From: Naganishia liquefaciens | Lineage: Eukaryota > Basidiomycota > Tremellomycetes > Filobasidiales > Filobasidiaceae | Length of the DNA stretch: 64,000 bases | Assembly (NCBI GenBank): GCA_013423385.1 | Contig: BLZA01000009.1 | Coordinates: forward strand, 124,001-188,000 | Reading direction: 5' to 3' | Shown here: piece after piece, positions 3,123 through 60,131 of the stretch | Position numbering within the stretch: the first letter of the stretch is position 1 | Layout: each line of letters starts with the position of its first letter | The notes under the pieces: generated by a model | Database searches by the model: none | Seen by the model: the letters and a program-made list of their open reading frames with translations, nothing else | Told to the model about the DNA's origin: nothing | Program-made: the position numbers and the translations under genes

Positions 3123-3204
3123 GTCGGCATGACTGAGTGGTTATAGTGATTGATTAGAAATCAATTGGGCTCTGCCCGCCCAGGTTCGAGTCCTGGTGTC
3201 GACT
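3123..3204 (+). tRNA. tRNA-Ser (anticodon AGA)
   Basis: An 82-nt type II tRNA fold. Acceptor arm GTCGGCA (3123-3129) pairs with TGTCGAC (3197-3203) with one G-T. D stem is ACT/AGT. Anticodon stem ATTGA/TCAAT flanks a seven-base loop with AGA at 3156-3158. A GGGC-TCT-GCCC variable arm is the long class II arm expected for serine. The T arm contains a perfect B box, GGTTCGAGTCC. A T run at 3206-3210 is a Pol III terminator. No intron. Odd points: the discriminator is T rather than the G73 normally used by eukaryotic seryl-tRNA synthetase, and position 10 is A (paired with T25), weakening the A box. Confidence 0.88.
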
Positions 3205-46021: not shown

Positions 46022-49000
46022 ATGAGCAATAGCACCAACAACGCAGGGACCGACATTGCATCACAGAAGCAAGCCAACAATCAAGAGCCTGGTTCGAGCC
46101 GTCCACATTCTGGTACTCATTCCCCCGCTGTTGGCCAGTTTGGCAGTCAGAACCCTGTATCAGGCGACTCGCCATTCGACCTGTCTACCTATCTGGCCTT
46201 CCCAACAGCCAATTCGAATCTCGGCCAAAGTCCCAATCCAGTAGGGGAGGACGTGTACAAGGCGTTCGCCTTGGGAATCAAGGAAACTCAGGCAGATCCC
46301 AGTTACAAGGCTCCGCAATTACAGACAACTGCCCTTTCGGCGCAGAAACGCCCATTCAAAACAGAGACCGTCAAGGACGGGCAGTCCCCGCAAGCGGGTA
46401 CAGAGCAAAGCAACACCATGAACAAACAAGTCATGATGGATGCACGTGGCAACGGCAATTCCTCGCAAACGGGAAAAGCATCTCTTAACACGGCATCCAA
46501 ATCTCAGAATACCAGTTCCGTATTCGCGAATCTACATGATGGATCTTCGGGCCTCTCACCATATGGCCTGGATCCATCCGCATTCCAGGCAGAAGTGCGA
46601 TTTCAGCTACCAGCATTCTTGAATCCTACGGGCACAACAGCAACGCACCCGAACGGTGCAGAAGTATGGTCTGGCTATGGAATGAACTCCGCAGCCATGG
46701 AAGGCTTCAACAATGTGCCTCGACAACATTTCGGTGTCAGCGAATTCGGGGAGAATGGCGGGAACACTGGGTTTGGGATGGGCTCCAGATACTTCGGCGC
46801 CACAGGAGATAATGCAAACGGAATGAACTTTGGCACCGCCATGGACACTTCAGGACACGACGGAAAGTGGCTATCGAATATGCAATTGATATCAAACCAG
46901 CAGAGCCAAAATGGAATGCGTCCACCTACCGCAGGTCAGAACATGCAGAATGATACGGGATTCGCGCACGCCGACGGAGGAGGTCTTGCGCAATGGGATA
47001 ACTGGAGCTTCAACGCAGACGCCATCAAGTCCTCAAACTCTCCGAGCGTTTTCCAATACAGCGCAGACGGGACGTCCAACGGCTTCCAAACGCAGCAGAC
47101 AGCTTCTGCGTCAAAGAACGCGAAAGGCGAGACCAACGGCAACTCAGCGGACACTCCCAGGATTCAGCTCACGACGGGCACAAATCTAACCATGCCGACT
47201 TCGGCTCTGTTCCCAAACAAGAGTCCGGTGTCCGCGTCGTTCCCTTCCTCTTCGGCCATGGCAATGTCAGCATCTCACGCGAGTGTTCCAGTGAACGTCG
47301 CGGATGGCGGTGCAGGCGGCATCGCTCATACCGCTGACAATACGTTCGCCTCATCCTCAACGAGTGCCAGCGCTGTGGCGGCGCAGGCGCTCGCTAATGG
47401 GCCTTTGGGAGGTCTTGTACAGCCGGGAACATTCGCGACACAAACACCTGGGGGTGTCAATATGCCGGGACTGTACTCGACGACAGGGTTCGATATGGTC
47501 AGCGTATTGGCAAAGGTGGCATCCAGGCGCGATCCCAAATCCGTTCTAGGACCGGTCGATTGCAGTTGTAGTTTTGTCGTGGTGGTACGTCCGCTCTCTT
47601 GAGGGCCAGTGGCCACGTCTAATTTACTTGACACCTTCACAGGATATTCGAAAGTACGACCATCCCATTGTGTACTCTTCGCCAACATTTTCGACGTTGA
47701 CCGGTTACGACAATCGCGAGATCGTTGGCAGGAACTGCCGCTTCTTGCAGAGTGAGTCATATTGACGTGATGTACGGATCTGTCTGACCAGTTGGCACAG
47801 GTCCCGACGCCCAAATCATCAAGGGGTCTCGCAGAAAGTACACCGACAACGAAGCGGTGGCTCACATGAAGCGAATGCTAGGAGCAGGAAAAGAATGTCA
47901 GGCGAGCTTGATCAATTACCGCAAGGGCGGCACACCCTTCATCAATCTCGTGACCATCGTGCCCATCCCATGGGACACCGACGAAATAGTCTACCACGTT
48001 GGATTCCAGGTTGATCTGGTCGAACAGCCCAATGCAATCTTGCGTAACATGCGGGACGGATCCTACCAAGTCAATTACACCGTTGTTAACAACCCACAGC
48101 CTCCTCTCAAAGCGTCACCGGCAAAGGCCATTAACGAGCCACCATCGGTCAAAACAATCGGCCTGAAGCAAGAGATGCTGGATTTAATCGGTCCGACACG
48201 AGCAAATGCAGCTGCCGCTATTGGTGGCGAAGAAGCGGGCAAGGCGGAGTGGCTGAAATTTGTGCTCGAGGAGACAGATGGTGAGCTTCGAAACCTTTCG
48301 AAATGATACGCATGCTGATCGCTTGTTTAGACTTTGTGCATGTATTATCCCTGAAAGGACAGTTCCATTATGTGTCTCCGAGCGTCAGGCGGGTGCTGGA
48401 GTATGAGCCGGAAGACCTAGTCAACAAGCACATCTCCGACATCTGCCATCCTTCAGACATCGTTCCAGTCATGCGGGAACTCAAGGACTCCAGCCAAACA
48501 CCATCCGACGGTCAACCGCCAAAGCCGTTCAATCTGCTATTCCGAATTCGTCGCAAATATAGCGGGTATATTTGGCTCGAGAGTTCCGGTCGTTTACACG
48601 TCGAAGCCGGGAAAAGCAGGAAGGCCGTCATCCTCACAGGTCGAGAGCGCAACGTGCCGTCCCTCAGATGGAAGACGATTGACGAGCACGGTGGACTGGG
48701 CGAGCGGGAGTTCTGGGCAAACTTATCCTTTGACGGTTTACTGCTATGGGCATCGGGGACGGTCGACCAAGTGATGGGAGCCAAGGCCGAGGAGGTCGTC
48801 GGCAGGAGCTTCTATGCTTTCCTCGCCGGTGGTGATGACGGGCCACCGCAACCAGAAGGACACTCGTCTTCGCTAGCCGTTCAAAAGGCCATAGCTCAGG
48901 CTGCTCGAGGTCTACCGAAGAGAGGCGGTATATCAGTTCGACATCAATTGCTCGCTGTGAGCGGACAGACACACGAAGTGACCTCAACCTTCTACGCTAC

Positions 49001-49541
49001 GATACGAGATCCTCGAGGATCAGCATCAGGCTCGCCAACGGTCCTGACGCCCGACAGCTCCGACTCGGAAACATCAGGCGGCGCAGCCGCCAGGATGAGG
49101 CTTGGCTCAACTGTCGAGCCGAGCCACATCATGGTGCAAGTCAAGATGTCAGGACCACAATGGCCTAGAAATAAGTATCCGCTTGTCAGCTCGCCGAACG
49201 ATAATGTTTTCGAAGAGATGGACACAACGAGGGGGACATCATGGCAATACGAGATACACCAGCTTCGAATTGCCAACCGAAAGCTAAATGACGAGGTCAT
49301 GGCGGCTCGAATTTCTATAACGGAACAAGTCGGTGGTGCTTATGATGAGGACGGCAAGAAGAAGGGGAAGAAGAGGAAAATGCAACAGGCCGAGGCTGAT
49401 CGCGCGCGTGGCAATCAACTGGGATTCCCCGCGAACCGTCCGCAGTTCCCCCCAGCGCCATCTGTCGATCATCCAGCACCACTTCATCAGCAAACAGCAG
49501 GTTTCGGATTAGCTCCGGGCCAATTATTCCAGACCTGGTGA
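46022..49541 (+). CDS. WC1: White collar 1-type LOV/PAS photoreceptor without zinc finger
   Basis: Four exons (46022-47584, 47643-47751, 47801-48280, 48331-49541) encode about 1120 aa. The first about 510 residues are Ser/Asn/Gly/Gln-rich and probably disordered. A LOV domain begins at about residue 522 with [17 protein letters not shown] and GRNCRFLQ, where Cys553 is the flavin-adduct cysteine. It is followed by a PAS domain ([29 protein letters not shown]) and a third PAS-like region ([23 protein letters not shown]). A basic KKKGKKRK cluster near the C-terminus is a likely nuclear signal. No GATA finger follows, as is usual for basidiomycete WC-1, where the finger is on WC-2. Role: blue-light sensing and transcription with WC-2. 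Confidence 0.93.
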
Positions 49542-50647
49542 ACAAAAGAGACAGCACTTGAAAGAAAGGTTCACAGAGTATCGCCAATAAGAAAGGAAAG
49601 ACCGCAACCAATTTGTGACAGGGTTTCTAATCCGATAAAAAGTGCGGGCGGGCACTACAATGGTCATAGCAAAGATTCTCAGACAGAAGTCACTAAACTT
49701 TGTACTCGGGATCAAGATGGACGTTGGGAAGGTTACAAAAGCGACATACGTGTAATAGTAGTCTAAGTATCGTTGGGAACGATCTCCTGTGTAACAGATG
49801 AAAAAGTATAATACATCATTGGAAGCTAGGATATAGCTACCTATTCGTGTATCCTGCAAGAGCAGTGGGAATAACTCGACCGTCTCTCTTCGGGATGTCG
49901 GCATATTGCATTGCTTGGACACCGCTGATATGGTAAAGATGGCTATCGCGCGCTGCGCGATCATTGACACGTGAAGAGGCCCAGACAGTCGATGAAGCGT
50001 GAGATAACGTTCGACCCCGGCCCAGCGAGTTCTCCTCTGTGGGGCGCGAGTCGCCACACGACCCATATCCCTTTACCTGAAGTAGCCCTCTTGAGCCAGC
50101 TGATGAGCTGCCAGCTGATCGCTGAGCCGGGAGCCTTGAATCCTTCATGTGACCCGGGCTGGAGGCCGCTGAGTCAGGAGATTGCAGAAAGTACCGGTCG
50201 CGACGGGGGCGCACCATCGCCTTACGTGACGACTGCCGCGTCAGGAGCCCTGCGACGCCTGCCGAGCAGAGTGCGCGATCCGCTGCAAAGAATTGTTGTC
50301 AAGCTAAACGTGAAGCTTGACTGAGGCACTAGTGCCAGCAAGTCGGTGTTCCACCATCGCGTTGGCCATATACTCTATTCACCGCTGAGTATCGGGGTCT
50401 CCGTCCCCATCGCTTTCTGTCAATCCTCGTTGCGTTCGCTCTTCGTAGGTAAACCGCGAGCAGGAAGTCGTGTTGCGGTCATCTTCGCGCGGCACACGGC
50501 GAGATCGCCAGAGACGCGGTAGGATCGATCTTTGCGCGACGACATCCTGTGAACGCTCGATATCTAGGCTTCGAACGGTCACTCGGCAACAATACCCCAA
50601 AGTATCTTCTCTGGGCAGCTGCATTCAGATATCTCTACAACATCAAA
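49542..50647. other. Intergenic between white collar 1 and P4-ATPase
   Basis: About 1.1 kb holding the 3' region of white collar 1 and the promoter/leader of the flippase. The frame of the flippase is open upstream from about 50549 to its ATG, with a CAG at about 50630 that could end a leader intron. An antisense 180-codon ORF (49524-50066) is treated as doubtful. Confidence 0.45.
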
Positions 50648-53600
50648 ATGAAGTCTGGAGTCATCGATCAAGGCCTTACTCCGGATGGACTTCCGGCAAA
50701 GAAGGTCTATGTCCCTCGACATAAAGCGGAGCCTTCCAAATTGGAGCAGTTTCAAAAGAAGCTCGCTCGTTTCCATCCCGCCTCGCTATTTAGGCGAAAG
50801 CGAGGACCGAACATCGCTCGTCAAGTATTCGTCAACACGCCAATTCCCACGGGTCCAGAATGGAGAGACAAGAATGGTCGTATCGTGAAGGACAAGGTAT
50901 ATCCGACAAATCAGAACATCACCAGCAAGTACACCATCATCACTTTCCTGCCGCGAAACCTGTTCGAACAGTTCAGGAGAATTGCCAACATTTTCTTCTT
51001 GGCTATCGCCATCCTCCAATTCTTCCCCGAATTCGCTACGGTATCACCTGGTCTGGTCATCTTGCCATTGCTCGTCGTTCTCGGCATTACTGCTTTGAAG
51101 GATGGATACGAAGACGTCAAGCGTCACCAGGCAGATCATCGCGTCAACCACACCATCACCTATGTTCTAGGAGGTGGTCCCGGAGCGGAGCATTCTCTTA
51201 TTCCCGGCAAGAAGCACCACACGCATGAAACTGAACCCGTCAATGGATATAAGAACTACAATGTCATGGCTTCAAAGGAAAAGACTTTCATGCCGGCCAT
51301 TCCATTGCCCAAGCGAAAGGGTAAAAAGGCGAAACAAGCCGAAAATGAGGCGAGTGACGAGGAGCGGGAAGCCGCCGCAACGACAGACGCTCTGCAGGAA
51401 GGCTATGTGGCAGGCGCCGAAAACGAGTGGGCAGGTGCGAGCCCGCACGGCAAACGGATCTCGGATCAGACGGCGTCGACTGTGGGCGAGGGGCCGTTTG
51501 GCGATCGCCACAACGTCAACTATTCGTACCCCATAACGGAAGAGTATACTCAGATCCAGGAACCGGTCCAAGAGGCCAAGAATGCACGACGTATCAACAA
51601 TCCTGATGACGACCCTGATGCATCGGACGATATGACGCAATTGGGTTGGAAACGTACGATTTGGGAGGATATCAAGGTCGGAGATGTTGTCAAGGTCTAC
51701 GAGGATGAACCCCTGCCTGCCGGTATGTCTCACTCATAGCTTGTATATCCTTGATACTAATCGGTCGTTCAAGACATCGTGATCTGTGCTACCTCCGAGG
51801 AGGAAGACGTGTGTTACGTAGAAACCAAGAACCTGGACGGAGAGACCAACTTGAAATCTCGACGGGCCGTCACGGAGCTTGCGCGATATCGGGATGCTCA
51901 ATCCTACGAAAATTTGCGATTCCGAATTGACGCCGAGCCAGCAGACGTCAACATGTATAGGCTAAACGGAGCTGTCGTGTTGCAAGGCGAAGAACATGCT
52001 GGACCGGACGGGCAGCCTGTGGTCCACCCCGTCAACTTGGAGACTGTTATTCTGCGAGGTTGCGTTTTGCGAAACACGGCATGGGTGATCGGTGTCGTCG
52101 TCTTCACTGGAGCCGATACCAAGATTATTCTCAACTCGGGTGAAACGCCTTCCAAGCGAAGCAAGGTCGAACGTCAGATGAATCCTCAGGTCTTGGCCAA
52201 CTTGGTCCTGCTTGCTGCTGTTTCGGTCGTATGTGCCATTGTTGACTACTTCAACGAATCACGATGGAAAGACCAAGGCGCATATTGGCAGTTGTTTTCG
52301 GATACTTCGGGCAACAATCCTAGCATCAACGCCTTGAAGACTTTTGCCAACTCATTCATTACGTTTCAAAACATCGTCCCGATTTCGCTCTATATCTCGA
52401 TCGAATTTGTGCGGCTGGCTCAATCACTATGGATCTATTGGGATCACGCCATCAAGTACACGAAGAATGGCAAGGTGACCAGGACAACCGCCAGAAGTTG
52501 GAACTTGTCGGACGATCTGGGACAGATCAGGTATATCTTCTCTGACAAGACCGGTACTTTGACACAGAACTCCATGGTCTTCAGACAGTGCTCAATTGGC
52601 GGAAAGGTACGTACCTGACGCAGAGAGTCAGCAATACGCTGATACCTCGCGCGGCTGCAGGTCTATACCGGCGACGGCCAAATGCCCGAAAATACGCTTC
52701 CCAACGATTCGAAGCCAAGCATGGAGAAGAGCGAGGTACCTTCTTCCACATCTTCCGATACGCCCCTTTCCAAAAAGCCAAGCGACAACGCGGTCCTCGA
52801 GGATCCTAGTAAGCCAAAAGTGCAGCTACCTGCGGAGGTCTTGGCTCCATTCCACGATGAAAACCTGTTGAACGACTTGCACGACACCGAGTCCGAGCAG
52901 TCTCGACGTCTACATGGATTCTTTGCGGTCCTTGGTCTCTGTCACACAGCTTTGGCAGCCGAGGTCTCGCCGGGCGTCATTGAATATAAGGCTCAGTCCC
53001 CGGATGAGGCCGCTTTGGTGCAAGCCGCAGCAGATGTCGGATTCGTTTTCCTCGGATTGGACAAGAACATCATGCGCCTTCGAACTCCCTTCTCCGATGA
53101 CCCGGAAGAGTATGAACTTCTCAACGTGTTGGAATTCAACTCAACGCGAAAGCGTATGTCTGTCATTTTGCGCAAGTTGGATGAGGACGGTCGAATCTTC
53201 CTCCTCTGCAAGGGCGCGGATAACATCATATTCGAGCGACTCCGATCCGGCAACGAGGAAGTCAAGCAAAAGACGGACAGTGATCTGCAGTATTTTGCTA
53301 GCGAAGGTCTCCGAACTCTCTGCTTGGCCTACAAAATCGTTGAAGAGGACGAATACGCCAAATGGGCCAAATCCTACCATGAAGCCAGTGTGGCACTAGA
53401 GAACCGTGAAGACAAAGTAGAAGAAGTCAGCGAATCCATTGAGAAGAACCTCAATCTGCTCGGTTCCACTGCTATCGAAGACAGACTGCAGGATGGTGTG
53501 CCCGAGGCCATAGCCGATCTCAAACGAGCCGGAATCAAGGTCTGGGTCGCCACTGGTGACAAGCTCGAGACGGCTGTCGCAATCGGTTACACCACCAACC

Positions 53601-55641
53601 TGTTAACCCGAGATACCAACTTGATCATCATTCGTGAAGGTGCGAAGACCGTTTACGAACAGCTCAAGAACGCTTTAGAAGGCTTTTTCAACGAAGTCGT
53701 TATGACCGAGCAAGAAGCTCGCGCATCACACGACATTGAAGCGATCCCGGACGCCCCAGCAAAGATGGAGCAACTCAGGAGAATGAACACTGGAGTGACT
53801 TCGCTTGTGGGTAAGGACAATGGTATGCGAAGCGGCGGCTTCTCGCTCGTCATCGAAGGTTCCGCGCTGCGACAGGTAAGTGCGAGCCGCAGTCTGTGGG
53901 GAAGGACCCGCTCACACCGCATTTTTGACAGGCTTTTTCGGAAGAAGCCACGGAAGAGCTGTTGTTACATCTCTCCACACAATGCGCCACTGTCATTTGC
54001 TGTCGAGTTTCTCCATTACAGAAAGCTCAGATTGTTCGTTTGATCAAAGACAATCTCGGTGTCATGACCCTTGCCATTGGTGACGGCGCCAACGACGTCA
54101 GTATGATCCAGGCTGCCGACGTTGGAGTGGGTATCTCGGGTGAAGAAGGTCTTCAGGCTGTGAATTCGTCCGATTACGCCATCGCTCAATTCCGATTCCT
54201 TACCCGACTTCTCTTTGTGCACGGTCACTGGTCTTACCTTCGAAACTCGAACATGATTCTCAATTTCTTCTACAAGAACGTCATTGGTGTCGGGGTGCTC
54301 TTCTGGTTCCAGATTTACTGTGGCTGGAGCACGACATACGTTTTCGAATACACGTATCTACTTTTCTGGAACGTCTTCTGGACCTTGCTTCCGGTCATCG
54401 CCATGGGTCTTTTCGACCGAGATGTTGATGCCGAAGCTTTGATGGCCTTGCCGGAGTTATACAGGGTTGGCCGTGAAGGAAAATTATTCGGTCTGAAGCG
54501 ATTCGGCTTCTATATCTTCGAGGGAACCTACCAATCCGCAATCATCTTCTTCTTCGTCAACTACGCGTATTTCACCACTACTGCGCGAACCGATGGATTC
54601 GATGTCGGACAATACGAAATGTCCATCGCTTTAATTTTCGGTGCCGTACACGTGGCCACCGCCTTCACTGGTCTCAACACCGAGGCGTGGACAGTTTGGG
54701 TGTTTGTCGGTCTGGCAGTAGGACCCATCCTGATATGGGCCTATACTGCGATTTACTCGCTCATTCCCCCCTCGACCTTCACCACAGGATCGTACGGCAA
54801 CGACTATCTTGTCTTCCGCTCGGCCTTGTTCTGGTTCGGATTTCCATTCGTGTTCGTTTTGGCTCTCTTGCCCCGCTATCTCTATCGCACTTTCAAGCAT
54901 TCATACTTCCCTTCTGATATTGATATCGTTGCTTGGATACGGTGAGTACAGTGCACATGCCGAGATGAACTTGCTAAACTGATCGTCTCTCAGACGCAAT
55001 CGACCGCAAATCGACGTTGTCAATGATCCTATGTTGGGAGGCCGTGCAAAGGACTTTCATCAATCGCAAGCACCGCCCCAAGGTCAACCGCCGATGGGTG
55101 AACGCTTCAGTGCCGACGGCGTGCATCACGGCTTTGGTGGCAACGGGGCAGACCAGGCTATTGAAATGATTCCGCGACCATCATTTCATGACAACAGACG
55201 AGATCCACTGGGTCGCTTGCAACCTGCTTCAAAGCGCGGATCTGCTGTGGATAGTGAGTTGATTTCGGACGAGATCCGATCGACATTGCCCTGACTCGTC
55301 TCTTTCTAGTGGCAACTGGTCTGACGCGTCAGCAGAGCCGCGGTTTCGGTTTCGACATCGAGGAAGGCGGTGTTGCCATTCACCGCATGCAGTCTCGTCT
55401 TTCACAAATCACGTCGCGTAATCAGAACTTCCAAAACAGAATGGACAAGATGGACGAAAAGAGTCCAATGAAGTCCAAATTCCGCTCGCCAAGCGTATCC
55501 CTCGGACTCAACGGTCTCCGACAGCGAGCAGGAAGTGTACTCAAGCCGAAGAAGAAGGGTCTCCTGGAAGGAACAGCACAGATGGAGGGGGAGGGGGGTC
55601 CTGGACCCGATGAGCCTCCTCAAAATATATATCAGCCGTAA
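50648..55641 (+). CDS. P4-type ATPase, Dnf1/Dnf2 class phospholipid flippase
   Basis: Six exons (50648-51722, 51774-52606, 52661-53875, 53932-54941, 54994-55253, 55310-55641) encode about 1574 aa. Actuator loop DGET starts at Asp380; phosphorylation site DKTGT has Asp616; nucleotide-binding KGADNIIFERL and the hinge GDGAND (Asp1092, Asp1096) are intact. The membrane motif PISLYISIEFVRLAQS is the Dnf1/Dnf2 type, unlike Drs2 or Neo1. Ten membrane helices are expected. Such pumps move phospholipids to the cytosolic leaflet at the plasma membrane or trans-Golgi with a Cdc50/Lem3 subunit. An insert of about 150 residues rich in charged residues lies between the first helices and the actuator domain. 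Long cytosolic tails are basic. Intron 1 uses an AAG acceptor. Confidence 0.94.
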
Positions 55642-56088: not shown

Positions 56089-57452
56089 TCAGAACCTGAA
56101 GATCTGTGTGTGGTGATAACATATTTGAGCGATCACTCTCAACTAAGTCCGCGGACCGACTCGACTTACCTGGTTCGTGTTGCCACCGACACACTGCCAG
56201 CTTTGAAGGTCGCGGATGGTGTTGTAAAATGGTCCTTGCGAAGGCTGGCTGTCATCCTTGACGTCGAGGCACTGGTTATCTCCCTCAACAGCAATATGGT
56301 TGTCTCCAGTGATCCACAATGCCTGATACGAGAGACTTGCATTAGACACCAGATCTGGATCAGCAGAGAACGCCACGTACTTGAGCGGGAAGTCCGTCAT
56401 AGCAGGTCCAAACTTTGCCTGGCGCAGCGTTGACGCCTCGGTCTGATCCAAAGTCGATGCAGTAATCGGTCTGATAGATCTTGTTTGGTGCGACTCGGAT
56501 CTTGGTTCGACCTTGGTTGTAAACAAACTGCTGCAAGTAGTAGAAGGGGGAGGTTGTGGGGAAGCAATCGGCACTTCATGTGGGTAGCCAGAGAATCAGT
56601 TGTCTGCCATGAATCGAAATCGCATGTGGGAAAAACCCACATTTTGAGAGCCGCGCCATCTGCCAGAACACCGCCAGCAACGGTCAAGCACTTGTCTTGT
56701 CCGTTCAAGTTCCACTTGATGGGAGCTCCTTGAGTAGCGGGAGGAGTGGTGGGCGGGGTTGTCTGGGTTGGAGGTGCCGAGGTGACGCCAGTGGGATCGG
56801 CAATGACCAGATCAGATACGTCCCAGGCCTGAGTACCCGATCCACTGTTGGAAGAACATGTATTGTAGATAGTTCCGTATCGACCTGACTCCAGGCATGC
56901 AGTTCCACCAGTGACAGCAATATGCTCTACGTGATGGATGTTGAGCGAGTCGAGACCCTAGAAGCAGATACGGCGAGCTTACTGTCATCGGTATAGTAGA
57001 ATCTAAGATGCAGTTCAGTCTGTCTCAGTAGATGCAGAATCGCTCATTCATCAAGGATAGCCTCACTGTTGATTCGGGTTGCCTGAGAAGCAGGACCAGA
57101 TCTTGACAGCATCGTTGGAGAAGTCGCCGTTCAGGTCCCCGGAATCGAGGCAGAAGTCGTTACTTCCAGCGGGAAGACCGACTAACTTGACTCCGTCATT
57201 GTTTCCGGCAGCGATCTCCCAACGGTTGTAGAAAGGAGGGTTGCTGCCCGCGTTGAAGTCATTGCAGTCCTTGGTGGCGACTCGAGCGCCATCGGCAAGA
57301 GATTCGACACCCAAGCAAAGCCCGTTGAAACCGATGGTAGAACCAGGAGCACGCTTCGTCAGAGTGGGTTGAGATCCGAGAGGCAGTGCAGCCGCCGAGT
57401 TGACGAGTGCGACGAGGACCGAGGTCAACGCTGTCACTGAAAGGGTGAGCAT
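56089..57452 (-). CDS. Secreted lectin-like protein, A-type plus B-type module
   Basis: Six exons (57067-57452, 56983-57002, 56641-56926, 56381-56573, 56170-56322, 56089-56103) encode about 350 aa. Signal peptide MLTLSVTALTSVLVALVN is followed by a Kex2-like Lys-Arg. Module A: CLGVESLADGARVATKDC, DFCLDSGD, KIWSCFSGNPNQ, FYYTDD, HIAVTGGTACLESG, TQAWDV. A Thr/Pro linker leads to module B (IKWNLNGQDKCLTV, YCIDFGSD, LWITGDNHIAVEG, QSWQC), ending IFRF. Exon 2 is a 20-nt micro-exon equivalent to the 14-nt exon of the 41-kb paralogue. Module B's core is split by an intron at 56323-56380 that the paralogues lack, yet its total length (346 nt) equals theirs. Exon 4 is entered by an AAG acceptor. Confidence 0.8.
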
Positions 57453-58879
57453 GGCGACGTTGGTTTGGCTTTGATGGTACTGGATAGCGATGGTGAGTTG
57501 CGAATGGACTGGAAAAAGATCAAGCCAGGAGGGTCGGTTTTCCGCCTTGTTATATATCTATTTTCGTACACGGTGTTTCACGCACATCTGGTGGTAGTCT
57601 GCGGACCGTTCCCCGCTAGAAGCTCCGTTAGGCCTCTGGGCGCTGCCTTTCAGAAAGGGTGCGTCGATGAGAAAAGGAAAGCCAATGATTACAGAAATTA
57701 CAAACAACAAAAACGATAACAACATCACATGATCCCTCGAAGGCAAAGCCGAGCTGCAGAGGGAGCTAGATGAGGACGGTTCGCTTGATATCCTGAGGCT
57801 GCTATACATGACAGAGGATGAACCGGAGCATCGCAACAAACATACAGCCGCGGCCCTGAAGTGGTTGCCCACAATCACTCCACCAACATTCTTGCAAAGC
57901 AGCAACGCATTCGGCAGGTACATGAAAGTCTGAAGTTCTAGTTGCGGAAAGCTGTGCCCTTGTCTGAGCTATACTTTTCTGCGGAACAACTTTGAGATCA
58001 CGTTGCTGTGTATGGAAGCACACATCGGCGCCCCGCACTGGATGGACTGGACCGAAAGGAGGAAGGGGATGACGACGCCAGGAACGGAGGAGACCGCGAG
58101 CGGCAAGGATTGTCGCGTCGCGCATAGAAGGTTCACGGAGATTGAGCGCTGAGGGTCTCTTGGTGGAACAAGGCGGCGAGCATCGAGAACTAACATCCCT
58201 TTGCAGCATGACCCTAAACAGGACCGACAGCGAATGCAAATGAATAGCAGAATAGATACTGCATGTGATGGTGGTTGTTCTCGCTCCCAATGAAAGTATA
58301 CCCTCCTGTTGGGGCTTCAAAGGTCTCGGGCCGGAACATAGCGCCCGGAGCGGAAAGAACCTTGAAAACAAGCCTTCCCGAACGGCAAGTCAAAGCTGCT
58401 GTCCAAGCCAACGCAGCTGTCGAAACCATCCTTGACATCTGCTCAGTCCCACTATTGGTACTTTGAACCATGTTTCAGACAAGCTCTTCGTCAGACAGCC
58501 AGAGATTTTGGGACAAAGGTTCGTTAAGGCACTACAAAGATCGTGACTGTACCACGACCTTCGTCTAGTCTGCTTTGCTGTTCACTTGGTCGAGATCTTG
58601 GAATGAGAAACTCAACATGCATGCATACGCTGAATTCGCTATCACCTCGTGCGGATATGCTTCATAAGATTTGCGGATATGCTTCTTGGAATTGATGAAA
58701 AGAGTACCTGGAGAGGAGGCTCCGAAAGAAACAGCCAGATTCGCGCTCGCTTGCACCCAGTATGCATTGACAACCACTATAGAGAAACGACAAGTCCATA
58801 TTTACAATCGTGCCACAGAAAGAAGACATCCCGCATGAGAAGGGCTCTTCTCTCTTCTCCTGTAACAGGACGTTCCCGC
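57453..58879. other. Intergenic, no supported gene
   Basis: About 1.4 kb between the fourth lectin-like gene and the CFEM gene. A long minus-strand frame (57802-58371) is open but begins without ATG and lacks a family signature. Confidence 0.45.
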
Positions 58880-60131
58880 TTAAGCGATAACCATCATACC
58901 AGCCATGACAGCGGCACCGACCAGACCGGCGATCTTCAATCCGGAAATGTCGAACGATCCCAAGGCACCGCTGGCGGGAGTCGAAGTGGCCGATGCAGCC
59001 GCACTGGAAGCCCGGGAAGCGACGGACGATTGGGCGCTAGCTACGGCACTATTTCGGGAGAAGGAAGTGGAGCAATGATGAGCTTTCGATTCGACACGCT
59101 TGAGGGTTGACACATACCTGGATGCGGATGCGATGGCCGAGCTGGCAGCACTAAGTAAGATATGTCAAGCCCGGAGATGAGAGCCAGGCATTATCCGAAA
59201 ACGTGAATGACTTACGTCGAAGCCGAAGCTCGGGCGGAAGAAACGGCGCTGCTCACACTTGCTTGACTATTGAAAGAAAGCAGTTCAACTTTCGAGTCCA
59301 CTCTTGCATCTGGATCGACACTTACGCCGAAGAAGCGGATGCGACGGCGGAGGAGATAGCAGCAGAGCTCTCAGTGGCCTGAAGGATGGAGTAATCAGAC
59401 CATGCTTTCGGCTTGAAAGGCGAGTCGAGAACTTACGAGGGCACTGGTGAGGGACGCGATATCAGTGGACGATTCCGAAGCGGCGGAGGCGATGCTCGAG
59501 GCAATAGCGGAGGTGACACCGCTGGTGGCAGCGCCTACAAAAGAGGATCTGGGGATCAGCAAGGCAGAAATGGAGAATAGGGGATCCCGATTCGCGGCAG
59601 ACTTACTGGAACCACAGAGGGCGGCCTGGAGGCTCAAGGCGGCCTGTTGATCAGACGCAGTGCAGCTAGATGCGAGACAGGATTGCTGAAGGGAATTAAT
59701 CAGTATTTTGCTTTCGATGCAATGTAGCAGTAGACTTACAGCGGCTGAAGAAGTGAAGAAAGACCAGAGGTCGAGAATGAGTTTTACTGTTCCCCTTTCC
59801 CTGTCCTGAGAGTTAATGGAACGTACCAGCTGGAAAGATGAGGAGCATCAGTTCCAGGATCACTCCACCAAAAGCCGAAACTTACAGAGGAAAGCAGCGT
59901 TGGTGCAAACACAATTGACGTCTGAATCGCACAAACGCCAACGCTTCAGTCTTTTGTCGTTACCACAAAATTGGCTATTCAAGACTGACCGGTGATACCA
60001 CTGCAACCAGCGCTGGAAGCAGCCTGAGTGGTGCAGGTCAAGACACAAGCCGGGATGTCGGAGAGACTCTGGGCCGAGGTCATGCCAGCGAAAGAAGCGG
60101 CCAAAGCAGCGAGAACGACGGTAGTCTTCAT
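58880..60131 (-). CDS. CFEM-domain GPI-anchored cell-surface protein
   Basis: Ten exons (59990-60131, 59886-59921, 59827-59829, 59740-59744, 59607-59685, 59437-59534, 59326-59378, 59216-59266, 59118-59150, 58880-59048) give 222 aa. Signal peptide MKTTVVLAALAASFAGMTSA is followed by a CFEM domain with all eight cysteines: IPACVLTC, AGC, NCVC, SC, SSC and LC. An Asp two residues before the fourth Cys (TDVNC) could be the heme-iron ligand known in Candida CFEM proteins. A Ser/Ala-rich stalk and a hydrophobic C-terminus (AGLVGAAVMAGMMVIA) indicate a GPI anchor. The family handles heme acquisition or wall interactions. Two micro-exons of 3 and 5 nt are proposed; they give normal introns and normal CFEM spacing. 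Confidence 0.85.

Follow-up and report, generated by a model that had tools for sequence, protein, structure and literature searches.

Exons of a few nucleotides in other organisms

Micro-exons, defined here as internal exons of 30 nt or less, are often overlooked in annotation (PMC8831610). Tiny ones set a physical limit to the recognition of adjacent splice sites by the spliceosome. Examples have been described in plants, animals and fungi. In Cryptococcus neoformans, which belongs to the same class (Tremellomycetes) as Naganishia liquefaciens, exons "as small as 1 bp" were reported to be hard to find automatically (PMC3990503). The CFEM gene of N. liquefaciens considered here resembles the intron-rich genes with small exons of that species, but the annotation there is RNA-seq-based, whereas the exon here comes from sequence and homology. 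The available part of the C. neoformans account contains no tandem of 3 and 5 nt like the one proposed below (PMC3990503).

A 1-nt exon, tested in vivo, is known from APC11 of Arabidopsis; the smallest alternatively spliced exon named before it was one of 3 nt (PMC4674806). As in Naganishia, the tiny exon of APC11 is flanked by two introns, and a combination of intron definition and sequential removal was proposed for it, but it measures 1 nt, belongs to a plant and is single, not tandem (PMC4674806). The 3-bp micro-exon of Drosophila homothorax has the same size as the Naganishia CTG exon and likewise forms one codon. In contrast to the latter, it belongs to an animal and is reported to be alternatively spliced (PMC7392893). 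Also described in plants are 1-nt exons and the adjacent 5- and 12-nt micro-exons of the rice gene Os08t0562700, the 5-nt one being absent from the annotation (PMC8831610). This rice gene shares the neighbouring position of two micro-exons with the candidate pair in Naganishia, which differs in measuring 3 and 5 nt and in being known from sequence.

Among fungi, the P450 genes of Phanerochaete, also a basidiomycete, frequently have introns of 45-55 bp and exons down to 6 bp, the latter being the shortest reported there and thus longer than both exons of the Naganishia pair (PMC1184071). Fungal micro-exons are little characterised according to the paper on Xlr2 of Trichoderma, itself a fungal gene with a micro-exon. 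Unlike the exons in Naganishia, the switch micro-exon of this ascomycete gene is 20 nt long and is included only in low glucose (PMC11121469). The available part of a paper on BRCA2 of N. liquefaciens contains nothing on introns or exons (PMC10684384).

Since exons of 1-3 nt have been reported in plants, animals and Cryptococcus, tiny exons are of a known kind. The claim of the first-pass annotation that a 3-nt exon would be among the smallest known is therefore fair, but an exon of this size is not new in itself. What is unusual is the tandem of 3 and 5 nt, together with two candidate 3-nt exons in one yeast genome. A 3-nt exon in Naganishia, a tandem 3- and 5-nt pair and two 3-nt candidates in one yeast genome were all missing among the literature matches listed, in which subscription literature is thinly covered. 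Judging by its sequence, the CFEM gene very probably holds two of the smallest exons known, which would place three introns inside 8 coding bases.

The CFEM gene and its splice paths

The window, that is, the whole analysed stretch of 64,000 nt, carries the CFEM gene on its minus strand. In the gene model, ten exons of 142, 36, 3, 5, 79, 98, 53, 51, 33 and 169 nt lead from the ATG at 60131 to the stop at 58880 and encode 222 aa. Exon 1 (59990..60131) comprises the ATG, a signal-peptide-like start and the beginning of the CFEM domain. It is followed by intron 1 (59922..59989; 68 nt, GTCAGT...TTCAG) and exon 2 (59886..59921), which encodes ...VNCVCTNAAFL and ends at 59886. Next come intron A (59830..59885; 56 nt, GTAAGT...TTTCCAG), the putative 3-nt exon CTG (59827..59829), intron B (59745..59826; 82 nt, GTACGT...CTTCTTCAG, with the acceptor end TTCAG), the 5-nt exon CCGCT (59740..59744) and intron C (59686..59739; 54 nt, GTAAGT...CCCTTCAG, ending in TTCAG). 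Introns A and C contain a branch-like CTGAT 18 and 14 nt before their 3' ends, respectively. The CFEM domain ends in exon 5 (59607..59685; QSCLASSC...LCGS), after which follow the Ser/Ala-rich exon 6 (59437..59534), exons 7 (59326..59378), 8 (59216..59266) and 9 (59118..59150), and exon 10 (58880..59048), whose 169 nt include the stop and encode a hydrophobic tail that looks, by eye, like a GPI signal.

The match to the CFEM domain (PF05730) begins at residue 23 of the protein, and eight cysteines (C29, C33, C43, C51, C53, C65, C70 and C86) have the spacing of the CFEM family. The product is a CFEM protein, predicted to be secreted and GPI-anchored from a hydrophobic stretch at the N-terminus and a hydrophobic C-terminal tail, both judged by eye.

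Inspection of the letters agrees with the first-pass annotation, which had placed CTG at 59829-59827 and CCGCT at 59744-59740 between consensus splice sites, separated by introns of 56, 82 and 54 nt. Translation also confirmed the peptide it gave, ...CVCTNAAFLSAAQSCLASSC..., in which five residues separate FL from the sixth cysteine, and its observation that skipping CTG creates a 141-nt intron (59885-59745), keeps the frame and removes one residue (...FLSAQSC). The spliced template reads ...TTCCTCTCTGCCGCTCAATCC... with both micro-exons and ...TTCCTCTCCGCTCAATCC... without CTG.

Every splice path of up to three introns, each of 40-220 nt, was enumerated over the disputed interval. Restricted to consensus donors, there are 84 paths, of which 16 are open; with any GT as donor, the number rises to 2,616, including 410 open ones. 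CCGCT is retained in all 16 open consensus-donor models, in six of them as a separate exon, and omitting it alone, with or without CTG, leads to a stop within the CFEM domain. On a protein profile built from 41 homologues with the query row removed, the model with CTG and CCGCT is the best of the 16 (123.9), followed by the one that skips CTG (117.0). Both of them have CCGCT as an exon of its own, and the next model scores 105.9. An any-GT path with two poor donors (-7.8 and -5.8) ties on the profile alone (124.0 vs 123.9). When profile and splice-site scores are summed, the model with both micro-exons comes first (164.2 vs 143.3), in a sum that favours more introns because additional ones are not penalised.

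The sequence, the open frame, the quality of the splice sites and the fit to the family are direct observations on this locus. The reading of both micro-exons as exons, put forward in the first-pass annotation, is supported by the open models for CCGCT and by profiles, homologues, cysteine spacing, intron length and splice-site scores for CTG. It is very likely, as a joint reading that includes intron definition and sequential removal, that CCGCT would be an obligatory exon and that CTG would be present in most or all of the mRNA.

Other features of the window are a tRNA gene at 3123-3204 (+) (Rfam RF00005, 54.8 bits), long ORFs at 50549-54945 (+) and 46022-49541 (+), which by eye resemble a P4-type ATPase (flippase) and a PAS-domain, white-collar-like regulator, and short ORFs at 56143-57452 (-) with what appears by eye to be a secreted ricin-type lectin domain, one of them having a signal-peptide-like start.

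Family fit and rival readings of the putative 3-nt exon

The Pfam CFEM model scores the protein at 51.3 bits with CTG and at 44.0 bits without it, both above the gathering score of 22 bits. About 7 bits are lost here, as on the homologue profile. In comparisons with single sequences, the form with CTG gains 0.4-6.9 bits over the skipped one for 40 of the 41 CFEM homologues, the exception being P0023 (-0.1); the count covers CFEM homologues only, 88 of the 129 rows having been excluded as proteins of another family. A local phmmer search with residues 1-94 as query found P0001 at 74.5 bits. Most of the 41 are named only hypothetical or domain-containing proteins and are, for this reason, probably predictions themselves. 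Among them, no deposited model of the CFEM gene itself was recognised, the 7,991 candidates sharing the most words having been scored within a length limit.

The number of residues between the CxC motif and the next cysteine is 11 in 18 homologues, 12 in 15, 13 in four, 10 in three and 16 in one. All 14 homologues with a basidiomycete name (P0001-P0010, P0030, P0031, P0035 and P0037), whose genera we take to be basidiomycete, have the x11 spacing, the same as the model with CTG. In P0020 and P0022, two of the three x10 homologues, an adjacent cysteine pair is aligned, and counting to its second member gives 11. Three Kwoniella proteins read CVCTNAAFQNAAGAC where the CFEM protein described here reads CVCTNAAFLSAAQSC. 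The x11 spacing also occurs in both CFEM paralogues on C18 (CLCADNGWAMSFQQC and CFCAQQQLIDALTSC), which have no intron at this place in their inferred models. The consensus spacing before the sixth cysteine of CFEM domains is x9-14, so that the skipped form would also fit. The solved CFEM protein Csa2 (PDB 4y7s) reads CLCVIPNFTGAVGNC, again x11, and aligns there without a gap.

Splice sites were compared with a small, hand-picked reference set: 18 introns of 52-73 nt from the CFEM gene and others in the genome, all deduced from homology and by reading the sequence. The donors of introns A, B and C score 7.5, 9.7 and 8.7 bits (leave-one-out reference range 2.6-10.7) and their acceptors 4.2, 5.8 and 4.4 bits (0.9-6.9). 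CTG is thus flanked by an acceptor of 4.2 and a donor of 9.7 bits, and CCGCT by sites of 5.8 and 8.7 bits, all of normal quality; the donor of the 3-nt exon even outscores that of exon 2. Introns A, B and C have branch-like motifs at 18, 33 and 14 nt from their ends, and a similar one is present in 16 of the 18 reference introns. The first AG past the branch-like CTGAT of intron A is the acceptor of CTG. Intron B, with 82 nt, exceeds all 18 reference introns, and the 141-nt intron that results from skipping CTG would be about twice as long as the longest of them.

The pattern YYYYAG-N3-GTRNGT occurs once on the two strands of the window, at the CTG exon, which is unremarkable because 0.73 sites are expected. 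YYYYAG-N5-GTRNGT occurs twice (0.68 expected), once at CCGCT; the other site is TTTCAG-AAAGG-GTGCGT at 57648-57664 (+). In 20,000 shuffles of the 141-nt stretch that preserved dinucleotides and end hexamers, a 3-nt exon with an intron of at least 40 nt on each side arose six times, and any exon of 1-30 nt 111 times. It is unlikely that the N3 site came to lie within this stretch by chance.

These figures bear on the reading in which only CCGCT is real and the AG/GT pair around CTG arose by chance within a single 141-nt intron, the protein then running ...FLSAQSC. As the frame stays open and the CFEM domain remains well over the Pfam cut-off, a minor or even a major CTG-skipped form is conceivable. 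The skipped model is also second on the profile among the consensus-donor paths, 0.73 sites of this type are expected somewhere in the window by chance, and three of the 41 homologues have the x10 spacing. However, the bits lost on both the Pfam and the homologue profile, the preference of nearly all homologues for inclusion, an intron far beyond the reference lengths, the rarity of such an exon in the shuffles and the position of the acceptor as the first AG past the branch-like motif make it improbable that CTG is fortuitous. The chance that CTG is a regulated cassette exon, with both forms made and differing by one residue of the CFEM domain, is somewhat greater but still small. Such use would keep the frame in both forms and has a counterpart in the 3-bp exon of Drosophila hth, which is reported to be alternatively spliced (PMC7392893), but the scores of the splice sites of introns A and B are inside the reference range, and nothing at this locus points to alternative use. 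If inclusion prevails, this reading overlaps with that of a constitutive CTG exon.

Two further possibilities are very improbable. The first-pass annotation had offered recursive splicing as an alternative. Strictly understood, the AG/GT pair would then act as a ratchet point and the 141-nt intron would be removed in two steps, leaving no trace in the mRNA. An acceptor does adjoin a donor here, but in its strict, zero-nucleotide form the mechanism needs an AG directly followed by GT, and this form does not agree with AG-CTG-GT, in which three bases intervene and would remain in the mRNA. After the first step, the junction would read T|CTGGTACGT (T|CTGGT), without a GT at the exon end; since the only strong donor sits behind CTG, the codon would stay in the mRNA. 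Just as doubtful is an end of intron B at the nearer acceptor AACAG (ending 59787), which would place extra residues ahead of AAQSC (SVKLILDLWSFFTSSAAQSC). This path is open and in frame, but it has a profile score of 105.3 against 123.9, an intron of 40 nt and an acceptor score of 0.1. Inclusion of CTG as a 3-nt exon is, on the strength of sequence and homology, strongly favoured, although not proven.

Further candidates for tiny exons and the proposed order of splicing

The genome paper of N. liquefaciens strain N6 reports 19.44 Mb in 59 scaffolds, with 6,883 genes, 38,748 introns, a mean transcript of 1,999 and a mean CDS of 1,621, as well as public RNA-seq sets with 300-base reads (DRR237068-DRR237071; PMC7679087). 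From these means, about 67 nt per intron can be derived if UTRs are ignored. A scan of the genome (19,446,910 bases in 28 contigs) found no enrichment of YYYCAG-N3-GTAHGT over its reversed control (38 vs 36 sites), nor of its N4 (32 vs 64), N5 (35 vs 63) and N6 (37 vs 47) versions. Most N3 sites are probably due to chance, because their number is barely above the reversed control. The 37 other N3 sites were screened for open-frame flanks, using strict flanks only, and one of the five inspected looked real.

This site, CTC (Leu) at C23:121385-121383 (-; locus L042), belongs to a gene for an amino-acid transporter (PF01490) and is a candidate for a second 3-nt exon in the genome. Its letters are ...CTTTCG|GTATGT (55 nt) CTCAG|CTC|GTAAGT (74 nt) GCCAG|AGTATCGCC..., and a partial hand-made model scores 91.4 bits with CTC and 88.4 without it on PF01490. 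Two paralogues (C16:286660-286923 and C5:27503-27796) pass this place in one open frame, uninterrupted. With CTC, the alignment to them is gap-free over 88 and 99 residues, respectively, whereas without it a gap of one residue appears and the score falls by about 6 bits per paralogue (138 to 132 and 106 to 100). A third paralogue, L049, with an intron of its own nearby, is uninformative (skipped form 65.9 vs 63.9 on one side, 48.1 vs 48.9 on the other).

Short exons are also predicted in the CFEM paralogues on C18. One has a 6-nt exon, AAAGGC (Lys-Gly), at L006:6638-6643, with which the Pfam CFEM score is 53.8 bits (49.3 without it). The other, about 4 kb away, has a 15-nt exon at L006:2383-2397 that the scores do not discriminate (31.4 vs 31.0). 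A spliced gene beside these two paralogues is 100% identical over its full 355 aa to NliqN6_5193 of N. liquefaciens.

The general view of fungal introns as short as those of the CFEM gene is that each is recognised as a unit. By intron definition, each of its 56-, 82- and 54-nt introns would be such a unit. The donor GTAAGT would pair with the first AG past its own branch-like CTGAT and join T to CTG; the position of the CTG acceptor as the next AG after this motif is consistent with a 3' splice site found by scanning. CTG|GTACGT would then act as the donor for the following intron. A 3-nt exon can hardly hold the 3' and 5' splice-site factors together, so sequential removal of introns A and B is likely, and either order would yield the same mRNA. 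Both introns must be absent from the final mRNA, since removal of A alone gives an immediate stop (LSGTFH*). The consecutive micro-exons CTG and CCGCT would together supply the S-A-A between CxC and the sixth cysteine. The use of the exons in mRNA, the degree of their inclusion and the order of splicing are what we infer from these features.

Taken with the transporter candidate, a constitutive tandem of 3- and 5-nt exons, with three introns in eight coding bases, would mean that the inclusion of exons too small to hold both splice-site complexes simultaneously is routine for the Naganishia spliceosome, which would therefore work by intron definition with one-by-one removal. This reading as a whole is likely. 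In the CFEM protein, a single codon decides whether the cysteine spacing agrees with that of the basidiomycete relatives. In a genome with public reads, a 3- and 5-nt tandem allows ordered, intron-defined splicing to be tested on a small scale, and similar gene models in Naganishia and related fungi may have to be re-examined.
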